A DNA stretch of 64,000 nucleotides from an uncultured Sulfitobacter sp. (GTDB taxonomy: Bacteria > Pseudomonadota > Alphaproteobacteria > Rhodobacterales > Rhodobacteraceae): NCBI RefSeq assembly GCF_947500075.1, contig NZ_CANMQS010000002.1, forward strand, positions 1 to 64,000. Reading direction: 5' to 3'. How positions within the stretch are numbered: position 1 is the first letter of the stretch; each line of letters opens with the position of its first letter. Below, piece after piece: positions 48,746 through 64,000 of this stretch. A program made the translations under genes and the position numbers. Below the pieces are notes generated by a model. It had not been told where the DNA came from. It did not search any database and saw only the letters and a program-made list of their open reading frames with translations.

Positions 48746-49491
48746 CGGACAAGGCAAAGGCGTTTCATGCGCTGCACGTGAAGGGGACGCCGCTGGTATT
48801 GTGGAACGTCTGGGACGCGGGATCGGCCAAAGCGGTGGCAGAGGCAGGTGCCAAAGCAATTGCCACAGGCAGCTGGTCCGTCGCCGCCGCCCAGGGGTTC
48901 GCCGATGGAGAGGCGCTGCCGCTGGAGGACGTGCTGCGCGCGGCCAGACAAGTGGTCGGAGCGGTCGATCTGCCGGTGAGCGTGGATTTCGAAGGCGGCT
49001 ATGCGGTTGCGCCGGAGGAGATGGCAGAGAACCTCAGCGCGCTTTTGGAAACCGGCGTGATCGGCATCAACGTCGAGGACCGCATCGTCGGCGGCAAGGG
49101 CCTGCACGGCATCGACGCGCATGCCGCCCGTCTCGCCGCCCTGCGCGCTGCGGCGGATGCGGCAGGTGTTAACCTCTTCATCAACGCCCGCACAGATGTG
49201 TTCTTTCAAGGCAAGGACGCCCCGCCTGCCGGTGACCTGATGGCCGAAGCACTGGAGCGCGCCGCCGCCTATCACGCGGCTGGTGCCAGCGGGTTGTTTG
49301 TGCCGGGGCTAGGCGATCTGGACCTGATTGCCCGGATGGCGGAAGAACAGGCGCTGCCGATCAACGTCATGCGGATGGGCGACAAGGTATCGGTAGAGAC
49401 CTACGCGCAAGCCGGAGTCGCAAGGATCAGCCACGGACCGGGGCCGTATCTGGCCGCGATGAAAGCCGTGACCGAGGCTGCGCTCATCTAA
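48742..49491 (+). CDS. Isocitrate lyase/PEP-mutase superfamily enzyme
   Basis: This is a 249-residue TIM-barrel protein of the ICL/PEPM superfamily: WNVWDAGSAKAVAEAGAKAIATGSW, DFEGGYAVAPEEM, GINVEDRIVGGKG and NARTDVFFQG. The DxEGG and VEDR motifs supply Mg-binding acids. It resembles oxaloacetate decarboxylase/PEP-phosphonomutase-like proteins, but the classical isocitrate lyase KKCGH motif is absent. The reaction is unknown. It overlaps ada by four bases and converges with the SGNH gene (four-base stop overlap). Confidence 0.85.
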   Translation: MTDKAKAFHALHVKGTPLVLWNVWDAGSAKAVAEAGAKAIATGSWSVAAAQGFADGEALPLEDVLRAARQVVGAVDLPVSVDFEGGYAVAPEEMAENLSALLETGVIGINVEDRIVGGKGLHGIDAHAARLAALRAAADAAGVNLFINARTDVFFQGKDAPPAGDLMAEALERAAAYHAAGASGLFVPGLGDLDLIARMAEEQALPINVMRMGDKVSVETYAQAGVARISHGPGPYLAAMKAVTEAALI

Positions 49492-50363
49492 CTCGGATCA
49501 GGCATCGCATCGCCGATCTCCTTGTAGATGGCGGTGCAGATCGTCTCCATCTCAATGGCAAAGAAGTTTTTCGCAGCCTTTTCATTGGGATGGAACGGGT
49601 CCTTCACCCGGCCTGACTTGTTCAGCCGGAAGTATTGCTTGTTGCCCTGATTGGCCGCAACCGTGCGCGGTGTGGCCCCTTCGATGAAGGTGCACTCTGC
49701 ACCCGCTTCCTCAAACGCCCATTTGATGTTGGCCTGCGCCTTCAGCCGGCGTTTGATGATCTTTTCGGAATAGGCCGGCGCAGTGGTCATGAAGATACAC
49801 GGCATGCCCGCCGGGATCTGCGCCATGGTCTTTTGTACGTCCTCCAGCGCCTTTTCGCGGCTGGTCCCCCAGCGTTTGGTCGCATTGCCCAGAAAGGACA
49901 TCAGCAGCAGACGGGGTTTGTAATAATCCGGCGCGAACATCGCCTCAAAGGCGGATTTGCCCGGTTTGCAGAACTGATAGGGCTTGCCGCGCCCGATCTG
50001 CACATATTTGTGGCTGGAGCGGTTGATGAACCCGAAGGTGCCCGCATTGGCTTTCCACTTTTTGTCCACATCACAGATCGCCCCCTTGCCGCGCCCCTTG
50101 CGTGCTGTCCATGAATGCAGGGAGGTTGAGCGCACACCGATCACGGCCACTTTCATCTCTCCCAGCGTCTTGAGATCCTTGGCTTGCGCCTCTGTCGGGG
50201 GGCAGTGGGTTTTGATGTTCTCGAAGAAGTCCAGAAAGGCGGGGCCGGAGCCGAAAGGGATCTGGCTGTCGCCCAGAATGACAATATCGGGAGAGACGAA
50301 GTCTTCTGCCTGCGCAGGTGTGGCCAGCAGAAGGGCGGAGAGAAGGGCAGGGATCAGGCGCAT
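49488..50363 (-). CDS. Exported SGNH/GDSL-hydrolase-like protein
   Basis: This 291-residue protein has a signal peptide (ATPAQA, about residue 19), a GDSQIPFGSG block I, and a C-terminal His in DPFHPNEKA, compatible with an SGNH hydrolase (Ser replaced by GDSQ in the same spot). Gly and Asn motifs (GVRSTSLHSW and FLGNATKRW) are present. It is a paralog of the next gene (GVRST, FLGNAT, MTT-P-A), arranged in tandem. The substrate could be an acylated polysaccharide or peptidoglycan. Confidence 0.8.
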   Translation of the reverse strand: MRLIPALLSALLLATPAQAEDFVSPDIVILGDSQIPFGSGPAFLDFFENIKTHCPPTEAQAKDLKTLGEMKVAVIGVRSTSLHSWTARKGRGKGAICDVDKKWKANAGTFGFINRSSHKYVQIGRGKPYQFCKPGKSAFEAMFAPDYYKPRLLLMSFLGNATKRWGTSREKALEDVQKTMAQIPAGMPCIFMTTAPAYSEKIIKRRLKAQANIKWAFEEAGAECTFIEGATPRTVAANQGNKQYFRLNKSGRVKDPFHPNEKAAKNFFAIEMETICTAIYKEIGDAMPDPS

Positions 50364-50371
50364 GGGGTCTT

Positions 50372-51250
50372 TCAGTCGGTCAGGGCGGCCCGCAGACCGG
50401 TGCAGAGGGTGGATTGATTGGCGGCCAGGAACCGCGCGGCAGAGGCTGCGGTGGGATGGGTCGCGTCCGTCACATTGCCCGCAGCATCGGTGCGGAAATT
50501 CTCAGGGCGGCCTTCGATGGCCTGCAAGGTCTCCGGGGTGATGCCGGGCGCAAAGCTGCATCTGCCGGAGGCGCTGACCGCCGCGCCAAGGTTGTCCTGC
50601 GCGATGCGCCTGCGCTGGTTTTCCGCAGGCGCGAAAGCGGGGATGGTGGTCATCACCATGCAAGGCAGGTCGGGCGGCAATTGGCGCATCGCATCCTGCC
50701 AGTCGCTGCGCGCCACGCCCGCGTTCTGCCAGCGCGCCGTGGCATTGCCCAGAAACGCCAGAATGATCAGGTCGGGATCGACATGGTCGGCAGCCGCCTT
50801 CAGCGGCGTGGTGCCGCCACCGCAATAGGGATAGTCCGCCGTGCCGATCTGCACATAGCTCAACCCCGCAGAGCTGACCCCGTAGCTGCCCGCATTCACG
50901 CCATAGGTCTGGTCGACCTCACAAATCGTGTCCCGGTCCGGCGCACTGCGCGCCGTCCAGTTGTGCAGCGCGGTGGAGCGCACCCCGATGGCTTGCGCGG
51001 TGGCGCGCGCATAGGCAGGAGGCAGGCCCGCGCAGGTCTGCCCGAGGGATTGCAGGAATTGGATGTACGGCCCACCCGCGCCGAAGGAAATCTGGCTGTC
51101 GCCCAGCATCAGGATCTGCGCCGTGCCGACCTGCTGCGGGGGCAGGGACGGTGGTGCCGGTGGCACGGGCGCGCGGATCACGGCAGGGGTGCAGGACAGC
51201 ATCGCCAGCGCAAGGGCGGCGCAGATCCAAAGGGGGCGGTGCAACGTCAT
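50372..51250 (-). CDS. SGNH-hydrolase-like lipoprotein, tandem paralog
   Basis: This 292-residue protein has a lipobox LAMLSC and a Pro-rich linker, then the same domain as its neighbour: GDSQISFGAGG, GVRSTALHNW, FLGNATARW, VMTTIPAFAPAE and a C-terminal THPTAAS. Start MTLHRP is chosen because the lipoprotein signal begins there; the longer frame begins outside it. It is eight bases upstream of the first copy, so both are co-transcribed. One copy is secreted free and the other is membrane-anchored. Confidence 0.8.
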   Translation of the reverse strand: MTLHRPLWICAALALAMLSCTPAVIRAPVPPAPPSLPPQQVGTAQILMLGDSQISFGAGGPYIQFLQSLGQTCAGLPPAYARATAQAIGVRSTALHNWTARSAPDRDTICEVDQTYGVNAGSYGVSSAGLSYVQIGTADYPYCGGGTTPLKAAADHVDPDLIILAFLGNATARWQNAGVARSDWQDAMRQLPPDLPCMVMTTIPAFAPAENQRRRIAQDNLGAAVSASGRCSFAPGITPETLQAIEGRPENFRTDAAGNVTDATHPTAASAARFLAANQSTLCTGLRAALTD

Positions 51251-51365
51251 GCCCCGGATTGGACGCGAGGTTGTGGTTTTTGGGAAGCGTTTTTTTGGGC
51301 CGGTGACAGGAAGGTGATGGGCGCGTGCCCTGCCTGCGGCGATCAACCTGCGGGGGTGTCGCCCC

Positions 51366-55096: not shown

Positions 55097-56326
55097 TCAG
55101 GCTGGTCTTGATGACACCCGGGTTTCGGCAGGCATACCCCGATACGCGCAGCGGCCAGCGACCCAGGTTCCCAGAATTGCCGGAGCCGCGCCATTGGGCC
55201 AGTCCACCAAAACGAGATCCGCGCGTTTGCCAAGTGCGATCTCACCCCGGTCGGGCAGCTTCATCGCTTGCGCAGGCCCGGTTGAGACCAGGGACCAAAG
55301 CGAAAGGCGGTCCGCGCGGCGCTCTGCGTCCAGTCTGACGATGGCCGCAAGCATGGATGGATAGAAATAGTCAGAGGCCAACGCATCACACAGGCCCGCC
55401 TCAACCATGTCGCCTGCACCGAGTGAGCCGATATGGCTGCCACCACGCGCTGCATTGGGGGCTCCGAAGATGATGGGTTCACCTGCCGAACGCGCTGCCT
55501 TTACCGCCTCCATGACCATGGGAAATTCGGCGACGTTGGCGCCCAGTTCACGGTAGTAGGCGCGGGTGTCGGCCCGAGTGTCATCATGGCTCAGCATCGG
55601 GGCACCGGCATCCAGGCCCATTTGTGCGACCTTCGCGATGACGTCCGGCACGTCACCTCGCCGGTCCCAGACGTGGGCCAGAAGCGCGATGTAATCCTCT
55701 TGGCTCAGACCCGCGCGATGCGCCTTGGAGGCTGTGCGCGCCTTCATCCGCTCATCATCCAGCGCCGCAATCGAGAAATCAGGCGACAGTTCAAACGCGC
55801 GATCCTGAAGGGACATGTCATAGGCGCGCATCGTCATGGATGTGTGGTCGTTGAACGCGATGGACGGCAGCAGCGGCCCGGAAAGCGCCCATTCGATGAC
55901 GTCCAGTGCCTCAAAGGCGAAGGTCTCCCAGCGCAGCTGCACCCGGTTCTCCACCGTGAGCCGCGGTGCCAGATCGCGCATCGCCTGTATCAGATCGCGG
56001 CCGCGTGCAACGTCGCGCAGGCCCGGTTCCCATCCAAGGGTAATGGCGTGATAGGCCGTCGCGATGCCGTTGGACGCCAGTTGTCTGTCCGTATCTATCA
56101 GCGCCGTTTCAGTGGGAAAGAAAACGCCGGGCCGGGGCATCAGCTGGCGTTCAAACGCATCGCCGTGCACGTCGATCAAGGCAGGGGCCAGGATCAACCC
56201 GCGCGCATCTATCACCTGACCTTGGGCGGGACCGCCAATCTCGGCAATCTGGCCCTCCGCCACGGTAACGGTTGTTTCCGCAATCTCGTTCGGCAGGTAG
56301 ACCTGCGCGCCTTCAAAGGTAATCAT
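55097..56326 (-). CDS. phnM: PhnM-like amidohydrolase
   Basis: This 409-residue amidohydrolase-superfamily protein resembles PhnM: LILAPALIDVHGDAFERQLMPRPG near residue 43, then ITLGWEPGLRDVARG, FNDHTSMTMRAYDM, and a C-terminal GEIALGKRADLVLVDW. PhnM is normally the diphosphatase that makes alpha-D-ribose 1-methylphosphonate 5-phosphate in C-P lyase systems. Here no phnGHIJKL genes are nearby; its neighbours are transport, phosphodiesterase and methyltransferase genes. The true substrate is therefore uncertain. It is the last gene of a long minus-strand operon; the methyltransferase gene directly abuts it. Confidence 0.8.
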   Translation of the reverse strand: MITFEGAQVYLPNEIAETTVTVAEGQIAEIGGPAQGQVIDARGLILAPALIDVHGDAFERQLMPRPGVFFPTETALIDTDRQLASNGIATAYHAITLGWEPGLRDVARGRDLIQAMRDLAPRLTVENRVQLRWETFAFEALDVIEWALSGPLLPSIAFNDHTSMTMRAYDMSLQDRAFELSPDFSIAALDDERMKARTASKAHRAGLSQEDYIALLAHVWDRRGDVPDVIAKVAQMGLDAGAPMLSHDDTRADTRAYYRELGANVAEFPMVMEAVKAARSAGEPIIFGAPNAARGGSHIGSLGAGDMVEAGLCDALASDYFYPSMLAAIVRLDAERRADRLSLWSLVSTGPAQAMKLPDRGEIALGKRADLVLVDWPNGAAPAILGTWVAGRCAYRGMPAETRVSSRPA

Positions 56327-56971
56327 CTAGAGCCGTTCCAAGGTCAGGTGCCAGTGCCAGGAGCCGGGTTTGTCATGCTCCCGGTCCTTCAGACTGAGGC
56401 ACTCGAAGCCTGAGAACAAGGCCAGGAGGTCAGCCGCAGAGCAGAAGTAGTGTGGATGGACCTTGTCGGTGCCCGGTGCATCAAAAACCCAGGCGTTGCG
56501 GCCGATTTCGCGGCCCCGATACCTGGCCTGTTCATGGGGCAGGCGGCGTTTGGACAGCATGGTGCCCATATAGCTGCCGCCAGGCTTCAGGACCCGCCGG
56601 ATTTCAGCGATGGTGCGCAGCAGGACGTCCTCGTCCCCGTGATAGATCACGTTCCAGCTCAGCACATGATCGAAACTGTGATCCTCAAAAGGCAGGCTGT
56701 CCATCCGGGCCAGCACCGTTTTTACGCCGCCTGACGTGGCAATCTCGTCCAGACCCTCGGGGGCTGCATCCAGGGCTGTCACGTCGAACCCTTGGCCTGC
56801 AAGCCACAACGCATGACGTCCGACGCCTGCGCCCAGATCGAGGATGCGTGCACCTTTCGGCAGCCCGGTTGCCCAGACCTTCACGTCCTCTTCGGGGGTC
56901 AGCCATTTGCTTCCCGGCTCAATGCCCGCCCACTGGTCATTCCAGTGCTGATCGGCTGTATCTGTCTTCAC
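56327..56971 (-). CDS. Class I SAM-dependent methyltransferase
   Basis: This 214-residue methyltransferase has Rossmann motif I (ILDLGAGVGRHALWLAGQG), motif II (VTALDAAPEGLDE) and motif IV (FDHVLSWNVIYH). It overlaps the phnE stop by four bases and abuts phnM, so it is firmly in the transport operon. The substrate cannot be told; methylation of a phosphonate or phosphoester head group, or of a sugar intermediate, is an inference only. There is no signal peptide. Confidence 0.85.
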   Translation of the reverse strand: MKTDTADQHWNDQWAGIEPGSKWLTPEEDVKVWATGLPKGARILDLGAGVGRHALWLAGQGFDVTALDAAPEGLDEIATSGGVKTVLARMDSLPFEDHSFDHVLSWNVIYHGDEDVLLRTIAEIRRVLKPGGSYMGTMLSKRRLPHEQARYRGREIGRNAWVFDAPGTDKVHPHYFCSAADLLALFSGFECLSLKDREHDKPGSWHWHLTLERL

Positions 56972-57771
56972 CTTTGTTCTCCGATGATTTTGGTACGGGT
57001 CCAGCCGCTCAACTGTTCTATTCCGATAACCACAACGGCGATCATCAGGATCACCGTCATCGCCGTGGGGTAGTCGAAAAGATCAAAACCGACCTTCAGT
57101 TCGATGCCAATCCCGCCTGCGCCCACCAGACCAAGGATGGTCGATGACCGCATCGCTTTTTCCAGAGCGTAGAGCGAGGTTGAGATAAAGGCGGGCAGGG
57201 CGGCGGGGATGGTGGCGCAGGCGACCACGTCGATCTTGCGCGCACCAGTGGCCGTCAGGCTTTCGGCTGGCCCCCTTTCGGTCGCTTCCATGTCGTCGGC
57301 AAAAAAGCGTCCACAAAAACCGATCGTGTCGATCACGATGGCCAGCATGCCCGCAAAAGGGCCAAGCCCCACAGCGACAACAAAAACCAGCGCCCAAGCG
57401 ATGTCGGGCACGGCACGGATGAAACCCAACGTTGTGCGCACAATCTGGTTGGCCCATGGCGCAGCGATCAGCCCGCGCGCCGCCACAAGCGCAACGGGCA
57501 CCGACAGGATGACACCGATCACGGCCCCAGCGACAGCGATTTGCAGTGTTTCAACCATTTTCCAACCCAACCGGACCAAAACGTCCGGCTCAAGGTTCGG
57601 AGGGAACGCGCGGGAGGCGAAATCGGCAAAGCGTGGCGGGGCGCTGGCGACTTTTTCAAGCGAGAACCCGGCACCTGCGAGGCACCAGAAAATGATCGAC
57701 ACACCCAGGATATAGCCGAGGAACGCAAGGGCCGACGGGCGCTCAAAGCGTTTAAGTGCGGCGTCAGTCAT
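56968..57771 (-). CDS. phnE: PhnE-type ABC transporter permease
   Basis: This is a 267-residue membrane permease with about six segments and the binding-protein-dependent transport motif (GFIRAVPDIAWALVFVVAVGLGPFAG; LTATGARKIDVVACATIPAALPAF). It is homologous to phosphonate permease PhnE. The start MTDAAL is chosen because a longer form adds eight codons without a ribosome site. It overlaps phnC by eight bases and the methyltransferase by four. Confidence 0.88.
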   Translation of the reverse strand: MTDAALKRFERPSALAFLGYILGVSIIFWCLAGAGFSLEKVASAPPRFADFASRAFPPNLEPDVLVRLGWKMVETLQIAVAGAVIGVILSVPVALVAARGLIAAPWANQIVRTTLGFIRAVPDIAWALVFVVAVGLGPFAGMLAIVIDTIGFCGRFFADDMEATERGPAESLTATGARKIDVVACATIPAALPAFISTSLYALEKAMRSSTILGLVGAGGIGIELKVGFDLFDYPTAMTVILMIAVVVIGIEQLSGWTRTKIIGEQR

Positions 57772-58582
57772 AAAGCCCCCGCAGGTCTTCTGCACTCAAG
57801 GAGGCAGCGGTTGCGTCAAGCTGCATGCGGCCTTGCGCCAGGCCAAGCACCCGGTCGCCATATCTCAGCGCATGCGCGACGTTGTGAGAGGTAAAGACGA
57901 CCGTGACCCCTTCGTCCCGGACAAGACGAAAGAACAAGTCCATCACGTCCTCGCCTGCGGCGGGGTCGAGTGAGGCGCAGGGTTCATCGGCAAAAAGCAC
58001 CTTTGGTGCACCGACAATGGCGCGCGCGATCGCGACCCGCTGCGATTGTCCGCCCGACAGACGGTCCGCGCGGCGGCCCGCAAATTCCCCCAGTCCCACA
58101 CGTTCCAACGCATGCAGGGCAGCCGCAGGAGAGGATTGCGGGGCCAGCGTATGGCTCCAGTGGCGCATGCCGGGGTGTTTCCCCAACAGCCCGTGAACGA
58201 CGTTTGAAAGCACACTCAGGCGCGGCACCAGGTTGTGTTTCTGAGAAACCAGCCCAGCCTTTGCCCTCAACTGACGCAAGGCAGCGGCACCCGACGTATC
58301 GGTCTGCTGACCCAGCAAATGCACATTGCCGCCGGTCACCGGGATAAGCCCCATCAGGCAGCGCAGCAGCGTGGACTTGCCGGTCCCGTTGGCGCCCACC
58401 AGCGCCACCGCCTCGCCGCGCGCCAGACGAAAGCTCACGTCGGAGAAAACTTTCGTCTTGCCAAAGTGTTTGGTAACGCCGCGCGCTTCGATGTCGACGG
58501 GTGACACCGGCGCAAATGCCGCCCCGGTGGGTTCGGACTGCGCAAGGGGCGCAGCCCGTTTTGTGACGACAAGATCAGTCAC
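57764..58582 (-). CDS. phnC: PhnC-type ABC transporter ATP-binding protein
   Basis: This is a 272-residue ATPase. Walker A is VGANGTGKST, the ABC signature RLSGGQSQRVAIARA, Walker B KVLFADEPCASLDP and the switch His FTSHNV. It is most like phosphonate import ATPases. The start is a GTG at 58582 that overlaps the phnD stop by eight bases; a longer frame upstream is a shadow of phnD. Confidence 0.88.
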   Translation of the reverse strand: MTDLVVTKRAAPLAQSEPTGAAFAPVSPVDIEARGVTKHFGKTKVFSDVSFRLARGEAVALVGANGTGKSTLLRCLMGLIPVTGGNVHLLGQQTDTSGAAALRQLRAKAGLVSQKHNLVPRLSVLSNVVHGLLGKHPGMRHWSHTLAPQSSPAAALHALERVGLGEFAGRRADRLSGGQSQRVAIARAIVGAPKVLFADEPCASLDPAAGEDVMDLFFRLVRDEGVTVVFTSHNVAHALRYGDRVLGLAQGRMQLDATAASLSAEDLRGLYD

Positions 58583-59444
58583 CGATGAAGTTGTCGAACT
58601 GGGGGAAGCCCGCGTTTGAATACATCGAGCGCACGTAGTCATAGGCGCTGTCATCAATCGCGACGAGGTCCATGCCGACATATTTGTCGTTCTCTTCATG
58701 GGCGGTGATGCCGGCAATGATCTGGGTCTTGTTTTCAAGTATCGCGTTCTTGACCATCTCTGCGGCTTCAGACGGCACATGCGCGCCCACCATGATCATG
58801 TCATTGGGCAGATCCCCCGACCGCGCGATCATCTTGAAGAAGCCGTAAGGCAGGTCGGTCTCCTTGTTCCGCACGTTCAGCCAGGAGCCGGCGTTGGAGC
58901 CAATGGCGTCCACGTCGCCTGCCTTCAGCGCCTCGTGGGCGATGTTGCGCGAGGTGTGGGTCCTGTCGATGTCATTCACAGGATCGACACCGTGATCGGC
59001 GAGCACCTGCATCGGGCACAGCATATTCGATGTCGAACCGATATCGCCGAATGCAACCTTTTTGCCTTTCAGGTCGGCCGGCACGTTGATGCCACTGTCC
59101 GCGCGCACGATGATGGCGCAGTGATAGTCCGGGCGACCCAGGCCGATCAGGGGCGTGGCATTGGTCAGCTTGTTCACAACGACATATTCAGCAGGGCCTG
59201 ACACCACAAAATCCACCGTCTCGCCGCGCAATGCCTCGGCTGCCGCGGTGCGCGAGTTTACGGCGTAGAATTCAAATGTGTCGCCCGTTGCGGCTTCCAG
59301 CGCATCCTTGAAGGGCCCCCACTCCAGTTGCAGGCGCTCCATGCCTTCGACGTCCGTGACGGCCAGTTTCCAGGTCTCCGCCGCGACGGACAGGGCGGAT
59401 ACAGCGGCAAGGCCGATACCGAGGATAAGTGATCTGAGGTTCAT
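58575..59444 (-). CDS. phnD: PhnD-type phosphonate/phosphoester-binding protein
   Basis: This is a 289-residue periplasmic binding protein with a signal peptide (cut after VAA, about residue 22). It carries the PhnD-like series VNSRTAAAEALRGETVDFVVSGPAEYVVV and GKKVAFGDIGSTSNMLCPMQVL, the region that contacts the phosphonate. The mature chain has one Cys (MLCPM). It delivers substrate to PhnE/C. It lies downstream of the second phosphodiesterase gene with a 65-base gap. Confidence 0.87.
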   Translation of the reverse strand: MNLRSLILGIGLAAVSALSVAAETWKLAVTDVEGMERLQLEWGPFKDALEAATGDTFEFYAVNSRTAAAEALRGETVDFVVSGPAEYVVVNKLTNATPLIGLGRPDYHCAIIVRADSGINVPADLKGKKVAFGDIGSTSNMLCPMQVLADHGVDPVNDIDRTHTSRNIAHEALKAGDVDAIGSNAGSWLNVRNKETDLPYGFFKMIARSGDLPNDMIMVGAHVPSEAAEMVKNAILENKTQIIAGITAHEENDKYVGMDLVAIDDSAYDYVRSMYSNAGFPQFDNFIGD

Positions 59445-59509
59445 AAGTCTCTCCAGGTTGGGGGGGGTAGGTTGAGGGTTTCGGGGACAGCCTTGAGTGG
59501 CAATTGACG

Positions 59510-60292
59510 CTACAAGTCGAACCTTTCGGAGCTGTCAGTGAAGTCATGCAGGTGCACCGTGACCTGATCCTCCCCCAGCAGAACCACGCCGTAAGCGGCA
59601 GGTTCGAAGGTGCCGGAGATGCGGTCTTTGGGACCACCTAGGTCAAGCGCGACCTGATGGTTCAGCCCGCGCATGCATGAATAGCTGATGCCGCGCCAGT
59701 TGCCCCAGATGGCACGGTGCACATGGCCGAAAAACAGGTGGCGAATGCGGGCGATGTGCGGTGCGATTACGTCGAAAAATGCCTCGGCTTCGTGCAGCAT
59801 GATCCGGTCCATGGCGGGGATCCCTACCGGACAAGGCGGGTGGTGCATGAACATCACAATGGGATCATCCGACCCGTCGAGTTGTCGCCGCAACCAGTCA
59901 CGCCGCAGGGCGCAATAGGCCCCGCCCGCGCCTTCGGGGGCCTTGGTATCAAGCAGCAGAAACCGCCCGGCCTCTGTGTGGAGCACCGTTTGGACAAACC
60001 CGTTTTCGTCTCTTGGTGTCTTGGGAAATGCCGCTGCGAACGCCGGTGTGTCGTCATGGTTTCCCACCATCAGATACGCGGGCACGTGCAGCTTACCCAT
60101 CTCACCAGCGAAACGCGCATAGGCGTCAGCATCACCCCAGTGGGTCAGATCCCCTGTCACCACGACAAAGGCGGCATCACCATGCGCGTCGTTGATCGAC
60201 TGCACGGCGCGCGCCAAAGCAGCCGCAGGGTCTTGGCCATAAAGCAAGCCGCCGCCAACAACGTGTGTATCGGTGAGATGGATGAATTTCAT
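59510..60292 (-). CDS. Calcineurin-like metallophosphoesterase (first copy)
   Basis: This 260-residue calcineurin-fold phosphoesterase has the full metal set: HLTDTHVVGGG, VVTGDLTHWGD, VGNHDD, FMHHPPCP and FFGHVHRAIWG. It resembles the CpdA/Icc-type cyclic-nucleotide and phosphodiester hydrolases. There is no signal peptide, so it acts in the cytoplasm. It overlaps the second copy by four bases (ATGA). In this operon it could cleave an imported phosphodiester. Confidence 0.88.
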   Translation of the reverse strand: MKFIHLTDTHVVGGGLLYGQDPAAALARAVQSINDAHGDAAFVVVTGDLTHWGDADAYARFAGEMGKLHVPAYLMVGNHDDTPAFAAAFPKTPRDENGFVQTVLHTEAGRFLLLDTKAPEGAGGAYCALRRDWLRRQLDGSDDPIVMFMHHPPCPVGIPAMDRIMLHEAEAFFDVIAPHIARIRHLFFGHVHRAIWGNWRGISYSCMRGLNHQVALDLGGPKDRISGTFEPAAYGVVLLGEDQVTVHLHDFTDSSERFDL

Positions 60293-61116
60293 TCTGCCGC
60301 CACCGGCTTGGCCCAGTCATCCCATGCGGTGCCGGTCTTGTGCACCGGCCCGTCCCAGGCAAAGGGGATCTGGTGGATGGTGGTTGCCCCCTCATCAACC
60401 ACAAGGACGAAATAGGCGGGGGGCAGTGGACCGCCGATCAACATCTCCGTCTCCCGCAGATCCGGAATGGACTGGTTCCCGGTCGAAGGCACGCTGGCGA
60501 AGGGAATGCCGCAATAGGTGCCGTGGATCGGCGCGTGCACATGGCCGAAATGGAGGTATTCGATCCGATCCTGATAGGCTTCAAGGATCGCGCGGAAACC
60601 GGGGCGGTCTGCGGGCACCAGGGCGATTTTGTCTTCCGCGGGCAGGCCCAGCGTCATCGGGTTGTGGTGCAGAAACAGCCGTGCGCGGGGGGCACCCTCA
60701 AGCGCCTCTGCAAGCCAATCGCAGCGGTCCGCGCCAAAGTGGCCCGCATGTGTCTTGGGCGCGCATGTGTCGAGATAGATCAGCCGCAGCCCATCCACGT
60801 CATCGGTGTAGTTGATGTACCCGGAGGGATCTGCCGGGTGATCGGGAAAGGCGCTCTGAAACGCCCCGCGATCATCGTGATTGCCAATCATCAGGCGAAC
60901 CGGCACGACAAAATCATCAATCGCTTCTTTCAGCGCGCCGTATGCCTCGGGCTCCCCCCAATGGGTCAGATCACCGGTGATGATCAGACGCAGGGCATCG
61001 CTGTGATGGGCCGCGACATGCGCCAGAGCTTGCGCAAAGCGTGCATGGGGATCGAGGCCGCCCATCTGTTCACCGGGCACGCTGAGATGGATGTCGGACA
61101 TGTGGATGAGCTTCAT
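60289..61116 (-). CDS. Calcineurin-like metallophosphoesterase (second copy)
   Basis: This is a 275-residue paralog of the neighbour: MSDIHLSVPGEQ, IITGDLTHWGE, IGNHDDRGAFQ, FLHHNPMTLG, HFGHVHAPIHG. The start MKLIHM is chosen since a longer frame adds seven codons without domain value. The two copies match over their whole length but have diverged, so they may act on different ends of one substrate or on two related substrates. Confidence 0.88.
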   Translation of the reverse strand: MKLIHMSDIHLSVPGEQMGGLDPHARFAQALAHVAAHHSDALRLIITGDLTHWGEPEAYGALKEAIDDFVVPVRLMIGNHDDRGAFQSAFPDHPADPSGYINYTDDVDGLRLIYLDTCAPKTHAGHFGADRCDWLAEALEGAPRARLFLHHNPMTLGLPAEDKIALVPADRPGFRAILEAYQDRIEYLHFGHVHAPIHGTYCGIPFASVPSTGNQSIPDLRETEMLIGGPLPPAYFVLVVDEGATTIHQIPFAWDGPVHKTGTAWDDWAKPVAAE

Positions 61117-61158
61117 GGCGGCTCCTGCTGTGTTCAAAAGTCAGATTTCGTCCAGAAC

Positions 61159-61186
61159 GTGCGGGGGAGAAAGATCCCCCCCGCAC
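61159..61186 (-). terminator. GC-rich hairpin after the substrate-binding protein gene
   Basis: GTGCGGGGG (61159-61167) and CCCCCGCAC (61178-61186) form a perfect nine-base stem, 15 bases after the stop of the binding-protein gene (minus strand). No T run follows, so partial read-through to the phosphodiesterase genes is likely. Confidence 0.6.
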
Positions 61187-61200
61187 GGGTCACCGCATGC

Positions 61201-62448
61201 TCAGCCGTTTGGCAAAAGGTCAGCAACCTCTTCCACCATCTCTTGCTGAAGCGCGTTCATGTCGGTGGCATCCCCCGTCACGATCCGCTCAATGCTGTCA
61301 TAGATCACTTGCGTGATCGCCAGACCGTTGTCGCCGGGATAGGCAAGCCAGTCGCGCAGCAGGGGCAGCTGATCCACTGCTGTCTGCTTGTTGGGGTTCT
61401 GCTCGTAGAAATCGGCGAGGATGATCTCATTGGCGGCCTTGTTGGGCGGCATGTAACCTGTCGTTTTGGCCACTTCCGCCGCGCCATCGCCCGACGTGAT
61501 GTACTTGAGCCATGTCCATGCAGCGTCACGCACCTTCGGGTCGTCCGAGGTAGAGGTCAGCATCGCCGCGTTACCCCCCGCAGGCAGGCCCATCGGCGCG
61601 CCATCGAGGCCCGGAAACGGGCCGGTCACGAGTTCGAAGTCACCTTGGCTCCGCTCCACGGCACCCAGCGCGGATGTGGACCAGAACATCATACCAATGT
61701 CACCGGCTGAGAAAGAGGACAGCGCCGCTTTCCATTCGAGGTTTTGCATCTCGCATTCCGTGAAAATCTCTTGCATCTGCTCAAGAGCGACCAGCGCCTC
61801 TGGGCTGTCCAGCGTCACGCGGCCGCCGTCAACAATTGCGCTGTCCTGGCTCCACAACAGGGCCTGAACGAACCAGTTGCCGGTGATGTTCCAGCCCCAG
61901 AAAATCGGGTTGTCGATGCCGTTGGCTTTCATGGTCTTGCAGGCTGCGATCACTTCATCCCAGGTGGTTGGCAGCTCTTCGATGCCACCCGCGCGCAGGA
62001 TGTCTATGTTGTAGTATCCCACCGGCAGGGAGATGGAGAACGGCAGGCCATAGACGGTGTTATCGAAGGTCGACAGCGACAGCATCGCCTCGTGATACCC
62101 GTCCTTCTCGAAATCGGCCTCCGAAGCGATGAAGGGCTCCAGCGACTGCGCGATGCCCTTGTCGATCAGCGGCGCCTGACGGTTCAGACCCTGCATGGTC
62201 ACATCGGGCAGGTTCCCTGCAACCGCTTCGCGGAGGATTGTGTTTGTGGCATCCTCGTAGCTCTCGTAGGTGGCGCGAAACTTCACCTCGATGTTCGGAT
62301 GGGCTTCCTTGAAGGCGGGCATCATCGCCTCATAGGTCACGTCAAAGAGGTGGCTGTAGGGATAGGCAAACTCGATCGTTACCTTTTCCTCGGCGAAGAC
62401 GGCGCTGGCCGACAATACCAGGACCATTGCAGTTGTGGTCAGTTTCAT
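61201..62448 (-). CDS. CUT1-type ABC transporter substrate-binding protein
   Basis: This 415-residue extracytoplasmic binding protein (family 1, UgpB/MalE-like) has a signal peptide (SASAVFA, about 1-19) and typical motifs (FSISLPVGYYNIDILRAGG; MMFWSTSALGAVE; GLPAGGNAAML). The start MKLTTT is preceded by a ribosome site AGGAGT; a longer open frame running upstream from here is not real. It would bind a sugar or glycerol-phosphate-type molecule; the neighbouring phosphodiesterases favour a glycerophosphodiester. The permeases are upstream, which is unusual. Confidence 0.88.
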   Translation of the reverse strand: MKLTTTAMVLVLSASAVFAEEKVTIEFAYPYSHLFDVTYEAMMPAFKEAHPNIEVKFRATYESYEDATNTILREAVAGNLPDVTMQGLNRQAPLIDKGIAQSLEPFIASEADFEKDGYHEAMLSLSTFDNTVYGLPFSISLPVGYYNIDILRAGGIEELPTTWDEVIAACKTMKANGIDNPIFWGWNITGNWFVQALLWSQDSAIVDGGRVTLDSPEALVALEQMQEIFTECEMQNLEWKAALSSFSAGDIGMMFWSTSALGAVERSQGDFELVTGPFPGLDGAPMGLPAGGNAAMLTSTSDDPKVRDAAWTWLKYITSGDGAAEVAKTTGYMPPNKAANEIILADFYEQNPNKQTAVDQLPLLRDWLAYPGDNGLAITQVIYDSIERIVTGDATDMNALQQEMVEEVADLLPNG

Positions 62449-62508
62449 TAGGTTTACTCCTGTTGCTGAGGCCTGACGGTTTGGCGATTGGCAGACCTCA
62501 ATGATTTT

Positions 62509-62542
62509 CCCCTGCAGGGGAGGTGATGGTCCCCTTGCGGGG
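62509..62542. repeat. Paired GC-rich dyads between permease and binding-protein genes
   Basis: CCCCTGCAGGGG (62509-62520, a perfect palindrome) and CCCC-TTGC-GGGG (62531-62542) lie in the 122-base gap between the permease stop and the binding-protein start. On the minus strand AAAATC follows the first dyad. They may stabilise the message or boost the downstream gene relative to the permeases. Confidence 0.6.
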
Positions 62543-62570
62543 CTATGGGTAGGGCGGGAGCGATCCCGCC

Positions 62571-63533
62571 TTACTTCATTCCAGACAATGTGATCCCCTC
62601 GATGAAGCGGCGCTGCGCGATCAGAAACGCGACGATCAGCGGTGTGACGATGACAGTGGCTGTGGCCATCATGGGACCGAAGAACGACCCGTCTCCATCG
62701 CCCTTGAACTCGCGCAGACCCAGCGGCGGCGTGAAGAGGTCCCGGTTGCCGGTCACGACGATGCGCGGCCAGAAGTAATCGTTCCAATGGGCCACGATGC
62801 TGAAGATGGCGAAAGCCAGCAGCGCGGGGATTGCCGTGGGCAGCATGACGCGCCAGACGATGGCAAACTCGCTCATCCCATCCATCCGTGCCGCGTCGAT
62901 CAGGTCATCGGGCACGGTCATGAAGAACTGGCGCATCAGGAAGATGCCAAAGACGGAGATCGTCCAGGGCAAGACCAAAGCCGCATAGGTGTTGGTCAGC
63001 CCCAGCTTGGCCAGCATGATGTAAAGCGGCAGTGCAATGGCATGGACCGGGATCAGCAGGCAGAACAGAACCAGCCCGAACACCGCCTCGCGGCCCCAGA
63101 ACTTCAGCTTGGCAAGCGCATAGGCAGCAGGCAGCGCCACGACAATCTGGATCAGAAAGATCGAGACGGTGACGACCACCCCGTTGAGCAGGTAGCGTAT
63201 CAAAGGCGCTTCGGTGAACGCCTTGGTGTAGTTGAAGACAACAGGGCGCATCGCGCATGCCGCTGTCGTTTCCGTCAGCAAAGCCTCCTGCACGCCAGCA
63301 TCATCCTCGTTGGGAAAACGCGACCGCGCCGCTTCAATATCGGCCCGGTCAGGCTGGCGCAGCGCAACGCAACGCGGATCGATCATCATCTCCTGCCGCC
63401 CAAAGAAGCCGCCTTCGCCTCGGTCGATCTCACCGGGGCTTTTGAAGGAGTAGCTGACCATCATGTAAAATGGGGCAAGCACAATGATTGCGCCAAAGAT
63501 CAGGACAAGATGTTTGAGCCAGTCGCGTGTCAT
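62571..63533 (-). CDS. CUT1 ABC transporter permease, UgpE/MalG-like, with insertion
   Basis: This is a 320-residue permease with about six membrane segments and the EAA-like loop DAARMDGMSEFAIVWRVMLPTAIP near residue 225. Between the first and second segments (residues about 35-110) there is a long hydrophilic stretch with two Cys (DPRCVALR and ACAMRP), longer than in ordinary UgpE/MalG proteins of about 280 residues. The start overlaps the preceding permease stop by four bases. The insertion might touch the binding protein. Confidence 0.85.
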   Translation of the reverse strand: MTRDWLKHLVLIFGAIIVLAPFYMMVSYSFKSPGEIDRGEGGFFGRQEMMIDPRCVALRQPDRADIEAARSRFPNEDDAGVQEALLTETTAACAMRPVVFNYTKAFTEAPLIRYLLNGVVVTVSIFLIQIVVALPAAYALAKLKFWGREAVFGLVLFCLLIPVHAIALPLYIMLAKLGLTNTYAALVLPWTISVFGIFLMRQFFMTVPDDLIDAARMDGMSEFAIVWRVMLPTAIPALLAFAIFSIVAHWNDYFWPRIVVTGNRDLFTPPLGLREFKGDGDGSFFGPMMATATVIVTPLIVAFLIAQRRFIEGITLSGMK

Positions 63534-64000
63534 CCGTAATGCACCTTTCGCTCGACCAGCCAGCGCTGGATCAGGGTCAGAAACATCACGAAGACCAGAA
63601 ACAAGACGGTGATGGCGGATCCAATGCCGATCAGGTTCTGCTGAACGCCTTTCTCGAAAATCGCGAACATCATCACATAGGCAGATTTGTTCGGACCGCC
63701 GCCTTGTGGCCAGAAGGCCTCGATTGTGTCAAAGACCTGAAAGGCGCGGATGCAGGAAATGGTCACAACAAACACGGTTGTCGGCCCAAGCGCAGGCCAG
63801 GTGACCAACCGGAACCGCTCCCAGGCGCTTCTCGCCCCGTCCATTTCAGCAGCGTGATACAACTCGCGGTGCACGGAGGTCAGCCCTGCAAGGTACAGCA
63901 CCATGTTGAAGCCAAAACCCTGCCAGATGCCAATGAAGCACACGACCCAGATGGCATAGTCACGATCCCTCAGCCACAGCGGAAACCCGTCAGCGCAGCC
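63530..64000 (-). CDS. CUT1 ABC transporter permease, UgpA/MalF-like (5' part outside window)
   Basis: The C-terminal part of the other permease of the CUT1 importer: an open frame runs to the right window edge (codons for FPLWLRDRDYAIWVV before the visible M). The EAA loop is LYHAAEMDGARSAWERFRLVTWPALGP, and the last membrane segments follow. It is the first visible gene of the leftward operon; any ATPase and regulator lie outside. Confidence 0.85.
   Translation of the reverse strand, partial: GCADGFPLWLRDRDYAIWVVCFIGIWQGFGFNMVLYLAGLTSVHRELYHAAEMDGARSAWERFRLVTWPALGPTTVFVVTISCIRAFQVFDTIEAFWPQGGGPNKSAYVMMFAIFEKGVQQNLIGIGSAITVLFLVFVMFLTLIQRWLVERKVHYG

Follow-up and report, generated by a model that had tools for sequence, protein, structure and literature searches.

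The phn operons of E. coli and of Rhodobacteraceae, which encode the phosphonate-degrading carbon-phosphorus (C-P) lyase, combine a PhnC/D/E-type importer with a PhnM-family hydrolase. We analysed a row of 11 genes that has both of these and no phnGHIJKL. It is carried by an uncultured Sulfitobacter sp. (assembly GCF_947500075.1) and reaches the right-hand end of the first 64,000 nucleotides of contig NZ_CANMQS010000002.1, hereafter the window. All genes share one strand, in the order UgpC-UgpA-UgpE-UgpB-like, PDEa, PDEb, PhnD, PhnC, PhnE, MT, PhnM2, and a divergent LysR gene adjoins. PDEa and PDEb are two calcineurin-like phosphodiesterases, MT is a methyltransferase and PhnM2 is the PhnM-like protein of the row. 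We refer to the LysR gene with UgpC-A-E-B-PDE as cassette 1, and to PhnD-C-E-MT-PhnM2 as cassette 2. G000 is the window genome, C1, C2 and C3 are its contigs (the row is on C2), and other G- and L-numbers denote genomes and loci. Judging from sequence, we give a probability of roughly 0.5 to the following reading. The row joins two conserved cassettes that lie near C-P lyase genes in relatives, and would import esterified phosphorus and supply C-P lyase in trans.

Several described systems come close. Besides C-P lyase genes, the phosphonate island fGIphn-A of HIMB59 holds a second phnDCE and auxiliary genes for a methyltransferase, a transmembrane protein and a hydrolase (PMC10734472). By this description, on which our comparison is based, the second phnDCE and the auxiliary genes are probably cassette 2; the account of the island gives them no function, and mentions neither a CUT1 importer nor a calcineurin-like diesterase. 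In the Rhodobacteraceae C-P lyase cluster of fosmid B3_TF_MPn_2, the role of a second phnM-like gene, phnM1, "remains to be defined" (PMC3840354, PMC5649143). As described, phnM1 sits in a phnCDE1E2-transferase stretch; in L116, the sole comparable locus, this stretch holds a gene of PhnM3 type. Sulfitobacter draws on the phosphonate esters carried by marine polysaccharides, and hydrolysis of the ester is a postulate of the account concerned (PMC5649143). Phosphorus-stress proteins of Phaeobacter include MED193_11288 (phosphodiesterase), 11293 (binding protein) and 11308 (ATPase) (PMC10132767). Their numbers are spaced like the genes of cassette 1, to which we infer orthology. Extra phnM genes, and phnDCE with a methyltransferase beside C-P lyase, are already published, without a function in the accounts cited. 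Cassette 2 is probably among them, and parts of cassette 1 are probably in print as a phosphorus-stress system. In the literature searched, no paper joined a UgpCAEB-PDE cassette to C-P lyase or assigned a function to PhnDCE-MT-PhnM2.

C-P lyase and PhnM2 in the Sulfitobacter genome

The initial annotation described these genes as a set without C-P lyase. This holds for the locus. Searching C2:50000-80000 by tblastn with the genome's own phn genes, we found no phnF, G, H, I, J or N; matches to phnE, K, L and M were the row's own PhnE, ATPases and PhnM2. For the cell, the description fails: a phnFGHIJKLNM set is present on contig C3. PhnJ is encoded at C3:364899-365729 (E 1.5e-142). PhnF (209 bits, cut-off 157), PhnG (176, 89), PhnH (160, 91.5), PhnK (393, 303), PhnL (315, 256) and PhnN (183, 156) exceeded their NCBIfam equivalog cut-offs, and the C-P-lyase PhnM scored 428.7 bits on TIGR02318 (cut-off 390.55). 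PhnI was named from position and conservation. The set holds two PhnE-type permeases, and the one scored against the equivalog exceeded the cut-off. The fetched stretch ends inside the next gene upstream; phnC and phnD of that operon fall outside it. Between phnN and phnM, an opposite-strand open reading frame (ORF) scored 229 bits (cut-off 249) as a "putative phosphonate metabolism protein", as in L039. No complete phn operon was found to the right of position 64000 in the range searched. All the same, the operon on C3 weakens the premise of a system without the enzyme.

PhnM2 (55097..56326, minus strand) is a PhnM-family amidohydrolase. It passed the looser subfamily model NF011987 (352 bits, cut-off 253) but not the PhnM equivalog TIGR02318 (281.8 bits, cut-off 390.55). 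In a tree of 100 PhnM-family proteins, which was midpoint-rooted and drew a program warning of long branches, 66 PhnM2 sequences formed one clade (support 100/96). The 32 C-P-lyase PhnMs, including that of E. coli, formed another (100/99). The presumed metal ligands H54, D56, H161, H247 and D319 were conserved in both groups. However, the positions of E. coli H131 and H134, which are His in 32/32 C-P-lyase PhnMs, are Asn in 60/66 and Gln in 65/66 PhnM2 proteins, respectively. This change, like the absence of phnGHIJKL, sets the row apart from the phn operon, with which it shares genomes and often a neighbourhood. PhnM2 also has an insertion at 172-194. In the structural model (mean predicted local distance difference test score, pLDDT, 86.3), the altered His positions lie on strand 126-133, and residues 170-185 fall below pLDDT 50. 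The model matched the general amidohydrolase fold only (allantoinase, dihydroorotase and others). Clade, equivalog score and pocket rule out that PhnM2 is a plain duplicate of the C-P lyase PhnM, and "PhnM" is doubtful as a statement of function. A third PhnM-family gene lies at C1 169526-170740 (L009), outside the row and the C-P lyase set. With the similar gene of L116, it makes up a further branch, PhnM3.

The two cassettes in other genomes

Co-occurrence was counted in 395 genomes of the family, with PhnM2 and UgpB-like proteins called at E<=1e-100 and with p-values that ignore relatedness. PhnM2 was present in 43 genomes and PhnJ in 202. PhnJ accompanied PhnM2 in 41/43 genomes, compared with 161/352 of the others (p=3.5e-11). 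Two or more PhnJ were found in 15/43 and 6/352, respectively (p=1e-11); of all 21 such genomes in the family, 15 carry PhnM2. UgpB-like proteins were detected in 25 genomes, that of the window included. Twenty of these also encode PhnJ (p=0.002), and eight encode PhnM2, compared with 35/370 others (p=0.003). PhnJ occurred in 13/14 genomes whose UgpB-like protein was 81% identical or more, and in 7/11 of the rest. A route dispensing with C-P lyase is ruled out, both by the enzyme encoded in the Sulfitobacter genome and by PhnJ in 41 of the 43 genomes with PhnM2.

A scan of GTDB genome contigs gave 25 PhnM2 loci at 70-88% identity. Most are Roseobacter-group records; some are labelled SAR116, Rhodospirillaceae or Altererythrobacter. 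PhnD-C-E lay ahead of PhnM2 in 18/25, with MT between in 15 of these 18, and several of the remaining loci were cut by contig ends. We obtained 44 further loci, 43 from 42 family genomes and one from a same-genus genome, in species that partly overlap those of the GTDB loci. Here, PhnD-C-E directly preceded PhnM2 in 30, MT in 29 and both in 27. By a script rule, C-P lyase genes shared the stretch with PhnM2 in 22/44 loci; L109 was counted for a single phnM-like gene next to a transferase, and L100 for phnM plus importer genes. In one layout, cassette 2 shares its strand with a C-P lyase phnM and stands directly behind it (L020, L022, L023, L024, L078, L079, L081 and L121). In the other, it lies beside C-P lyase genes of the opposite strand; in many loci, including L030, L037, L084 and L088, these genes form a second, diverged operon.

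Such a second C-P lyase operon, approximately 40-50% identical to the usual one, is present in many genomes with PhnM2 and was seen in L030, L031, L037, L038, L084-L088, L092, L095-L099, L110, L148, L150 and L165. Downstream of PhnM2, a xylose-isomerase-like TIM barrel is encoded in 15/44 loci; in the window genome none was found, by a search run without a positive control. After PhnM2, the SAR116 record L035 encodes a PHP metallohydrolase of CehA/McbA type (L035:5335-6261; 72 bits, cut-off 80). This is perhaps a further ester hydrolase paired with cassette 2. One copy of cassette 2 is on a Pseudosulfitobacter plasmid (L044), which PLSDB predicts to be mobilizable or conjugative.

For cassette 1, surroundings were taken in all 24 other genomes with a UgpB-like gene (L147-L166, L170-L172, L086). 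Stretches were 20 kb at most and some were cut by contig ends (L171, 3.8 kb). A phosphodiesterase gene directly followed the UgpB-like gene in 22/24, the exceptions being L164 and L171. C-P lyase genes shared the stretch in 7/24, compared with a chance expectation, on assumed sizes, of 0.18-0.37 of 24. The layouts vary. In L148, L150 and L165, cassette 1 leads into phnF and core genes on one strand, phnG not being among the matches of L150. In L149, it is followed by phnC, phnE and phnE and, further on, by phnF, G and H. Cassette 1 and phnM lie tail to tail in L153 and L161. In L086, C-P lyase genes are followed by PhnDCE-MT-PhnM2-TIM and then by cassette 1 on the other strand. Among the loci examined, both cassettes stand in a row on the same strand only in the window genome and in Roseobacter insulae (L019). 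The gene order recurs in other genomes more often than by chance, which contradicts the lack of co-occurrence elsewhere that would have refuted the initial reading. Cassette 1 was also found in 17 Phaeobacter plasmid records, two of whose regions were inspected (UgpB identity 85.7-90.3%). The plasmids of L168 and L169 are mobilizable or conjugative as predicted by PLSDB. In L151 and L169, a plasmid region of Phaeobacter porticola, the first diesterase gene is intact and the second looks broken, with only its later part open.

Several observations weigh against the reading preferred here. PhnM2 occurs without PhnJ in 2/43 genomes (G142 and G426), and the UgpB-like protein does so in 5/25 (G071, G100, G236, G254 and G354). 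No C-P lyase gene was seen in 17/24 of the other UgpB-like stretches. A haloacid dehalogenase (HAD)-family phosphatase directly follows cassette 1 in L163, in a genome without PhnJ, and in L172, where PhnJ is present. Hence, these loci would suit phosphate esters rather than phosphonates. In 14/44 loci, of which two stop at a contig end, PhnD-C-E are not directly upstream of PhnM2; of the 30 loci with PhnD-C-E, three lack MT. Hence, the PhnDCE-MT-PhnM2 block is not obligate. Upstream of the row, a simple consensus scan found no Pho box above the window background; the best site in the 66-bp gap there matched 7/14 positions, or 8 with flanks.

Ligand pockets and alternative explanations

Like UgpBAEC with UgpQ, cassette 1 sets a CUT1 importer beside a phosphodiesterase. 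However, the row falls below every Ugp cut-off. The UgpB-like substrate-binding protein (61201..62448, minus strand; SBP_bac_8/SBP_bac_1) scored 66.8 bits on the UgpB equivalog NF008211 (cut-off 411). The PF00528 permeases, also on the minus strand, scored 67.6 bits on the UgpA model (63530..64000; cut-off 335) and 123.8 bits on the UgpE model (62571..63533; cut-off 297). Furthermore, the row's phosphodiesterases are calcineurin-like and not of the glycerophosphodiester phosphodiesterase (GDPD) family. The genome has a separate, true UgpB at C1:699131-700387 (534.9 bits, cut-off 411) and a GDPD gene at C3:208755-209381. These two genes rule out that the Ugp-like importer is the genome's glycerol-phosphate importer.

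Nine ligand contacts are known for Phaeobacter UgpB; the same account gives two Tyr and two Ser as strictly conserved in phospho-ligand CUT1 proteins and not in glucose-binding ones (PMC12718374). We mapped the contacts through E. coli UgpB at approximately 20-25% identity, with a steady four-residue shift from Trp188 on. On this mapping, the phosphate clamp Tyr64, Ser143, Ser266 and Tyr342 is kept in 28/28 UgpB-like proteins, as are Gly303 and both Trp. Conversely, two of the three glycerol contacts are changed in 28/28: Glu88, which an alignment gap adjoins, to Gly or Ala, and Arg393 to Thr. A ugpB gpxB double mutant of Phaeobacter MED193 is described as unable to grow on glycerol phosphates (PMC12718374). 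Hence, a further CUT1 system in that strain, if orthologous to cassette 1, would not be a glycerol-phosphate importer.

PDEa (60289..61116) and PDEb (59510..60292), both PF00149 and on the minus strand, are 37.6% identical. As in SpdA, CpdA and GpdQ, the metal motif D-x-H...GD...GNH[DE]...H...GHxH is complete, a claim that we make for these two window proteins only. Our regular expression for it fitted 15, then 19, of 37 PDE-like ORFs, the misses including spacing and start artefacts and two short ORFs. PDEa begins at the metal motif and therefore has no signal peptide. Unlike the described enzymes, PDEa and PDEb passed no equivalog cut-off, with 187 and 238 bits on SpdA (cut-off 400) and 66 and 81 bits on CpdA (cut-off 225), respectively. 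The solved sequences closest to PDEb were 2zo9/2dxl, annotated "phosphohydrolase" (83 bits), which we take to be GpdQ. GpdQ accepts phosphonate esters; a literature search on GpdQ and phosphonate monoesters gave no paper.

The strong alternative, ranked close behind supply of C-P lyase, is that cassette 1 scavenges phosphodiesters in general. Its Ugp-like importer and the two diesterases would then import and cleave common phosphate diesters (glycerophosphodiesters, nucleotide fragments, 2',3'-cyclic nucleotides), and its proximity to C-P lyase would reflect no more than the clustering of phosphorus-starvation genes in islands. We give this perhaps one chance in three. The closest curated family of the diesterases, SpdA, is a 2',3'-cyclic nucleotide phosphodiesterase, albeit matched below cut-off, and the 2zo9/2dxl match, the HAD phosphatase of L163 and L172 and the 5/25 UgpB-like genomes without PhnJ also favour it. 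So does the rise under phosphorus stress of MED193_11288, 11293 and 11308, in matching order and presumably orthologous, reported for Phaeobacter (PMC10132767). However, scavenging sits poorly with linkage to C-P lyase in 7/24 loci of varied layout, with PhnJ in 13/14 genomes at 81% identity or more, and with the fusion to PhnDCE-MT-PhnM2 in the window genome and Roseobacter insulae.

A second alternative is that cassette 2 is another, ordinary importer of phosphite or alkylphosphonate with a redundant PhnM. The pocket of PhnD makes this unlikely. PhnD (58575..59444, minus strand; PF12974; PhnD equivalog 80 bits, cut-off 261) is a substrate-binding protein of the PhnT family, and its closest solved relative is PtxB (5o2j), as an ordinary importer would have it. 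GpxB and PtxB/HtxB are described with a Ser-x-Ser phosphorus-binding loop (PMC12718374, PMC5700983). The row's PhnD shares the loop as Ser-Thr-Ser, as do all other orthologues at 65% identity or above (37/37 with the window protein counted). In PtxB and marine PhnD, by the account available, a Tyr and a His hold the phosphite oxygens and a further Tyr caps the pocket (PMC5700983). However, the Tyr position is Arg in 37/37 orthologues, the His position is Arg in 34/37 (Lys in 2, Ala in 1) and the capping column is Asp in 37/37; in the window protein, these are R65, R166 and D215. Among nine more distant orthologues (38-64%), the Tyr position is Arg in 7 and Gln in 2, and the His position Arg in 7 and Lys in 2. 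By comparison, Tyr and His are each kept in 14/14 further PhnD-type proteins encoded at these loci, with Gly (13) or Tyr (1) in the cap column. One of the 14 is the phosphite-like protein of plasmid L044, where cassette 2 adjoins a set of phnCDE, 2-hydroxyacid-dehydrogenase-family and LysR genes resembling a phosphite operon. This neighbourhood would suit an ordinary importer, as would a published analogy with Prochlorococcus by which the phnDCE of such an island was read as a phosphite transporter (PMC10734472). Nevertheless, the L044 set has its own phnCDE, and PhnM2 differs in its pocket and forms a clade apart.

MT (56327..56971, minus strand; PF13649/PF08241) is a class I S-adenosylmethionine-dependent methyltransferase with conserved columns across 22 sequences and a model pLDDT of 88.9. 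Its listed structure matches were class I methyltransferases of many substrates, and it resembles TehB-type enzymes among many others. DhpI, which we take to be a phosphonate O-methyltransferase, was not among the 60 sequence matches or 50 structure matches listed, and this lead for MT was not confirmed. Detoxification, in which PhnDCE would admit an arsenic- or selenium-type analogue for MT to methylate and an ArsK-like major facilitator superfamily (MFS) protein of relatives to export, draws on the TehB resemblance and on the MFS gene downstream of PhnM2 in 10/44 loci (ArsK being its best curated match at 283 bits, cut-off 400), but is highly improbable since the scores are below cut-off, no MFS gene follows PhnM2 in the window genome (the next genes are MerR-like and SDR-like ORFs) and the tie to PhnJ (41/43) indicates phosphonates.

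Row layout and proposed route

The first gene of the row, for a UgpC-like CUT1 ATPase (C2 64497-65651, minus strand), lies outside the window, as does the divergent LysR gene adjoining it (C2 65718-66623, plus strand). The gene for the UgpA-like permease is cut by the window edge and extends to C2 64495. PhnC, a PhnC-type ATPase (57764..58580, minus strand), scored 231.5 bits on TIGR02315 (cut-off 266); its start codon is uncertain and the ORF extends to 58780. The PhnE permease (56968..57795, minus strand) passed TIGR01097 (258 bits, cut-off 217). From UgpC to PhnM2, the gaps are 1, -4, 122, 84, -4, 65, -23, -32, -4 and 0 bp, the -23 being approximate because the phnC start is uncertain. The initial annotation was right that the genes from 64000 to 55097 run in one direction and that many overlap, and all those it named are on the minus strand in the families stated. 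The tight junctions are as expected of one operon, and we infer a single transcript. Rfam at gathering thresholds and a tRNA scan gave no match in the window. Elsewhere in the window, 49488-50363 and 50372-51346 (minus strand) encode two similar, adjacent exported proteins with an LGDSQI motif near each N-terminus. Judged by eye, they resemble tandem SGNH-type proteins.

An earlier proposal for these genes had an ester enter by two importers, be cut by the calcineurin-like enzymes and be passed on. This order of events fits, since the two cassettes go together with C-P lyase genes and the residues by which phospho-ligand CUT1 proteins bind phosphate are retained in the UgpB-like protein. Its bypass of C-P lyase fails. 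We therefore return to supply of C-P lyase in trans. Briefly, a phosphorus diester or phosphonate ester would enter via the CUT1 importer, as the pocket and neighbours suggest. Cytoplasmic PDEa and PDEb would cut the imported ester, to judge by their family, their motif and the absence of signal peptides. The freed phosphonate would pass to the C-P lyase encoded on the other contig, consistent with co-occurrence and linkage. More tentatively, PhnDCE may import another phosphorus oxyanion that resembles neither phosphite nor simple alkylphosphonates. PhnM2 may hydrolyse an intermediate other than ribose 1-phosphonate 5-triphosphate, the usual substrate of the C-P-lyase PhnM, which is a diphosphatase. 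MT would be an accessory, absent in some lineages.

A broader proposal is possible but rather doubtful. Marine Rhodobacteraceae may have a dedicated, plasmid-borne-capable route in which whole phosphonate esters of ocean dissolved organic matter are taken in and cut by cytoplasmic calcineurin-like diesterases, the phosphonate set free being handed to C-P lyase. PhnM2 and MT would branch off from the C-P lyase pathway to work on an as yet undescribed substrate.

We regard the row as a genuine accessory arm of C-P lyase metabolism in the sea, conserved and in part already described, whose function is predicted. With the cassettes, an importer, a regulator, two diesterases and two accessory enzymes become open to deletion and assay in genera that can be cultured. 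Metagenome counts of "phnM" and "phnDCE" can mix proteins with differing pockets.

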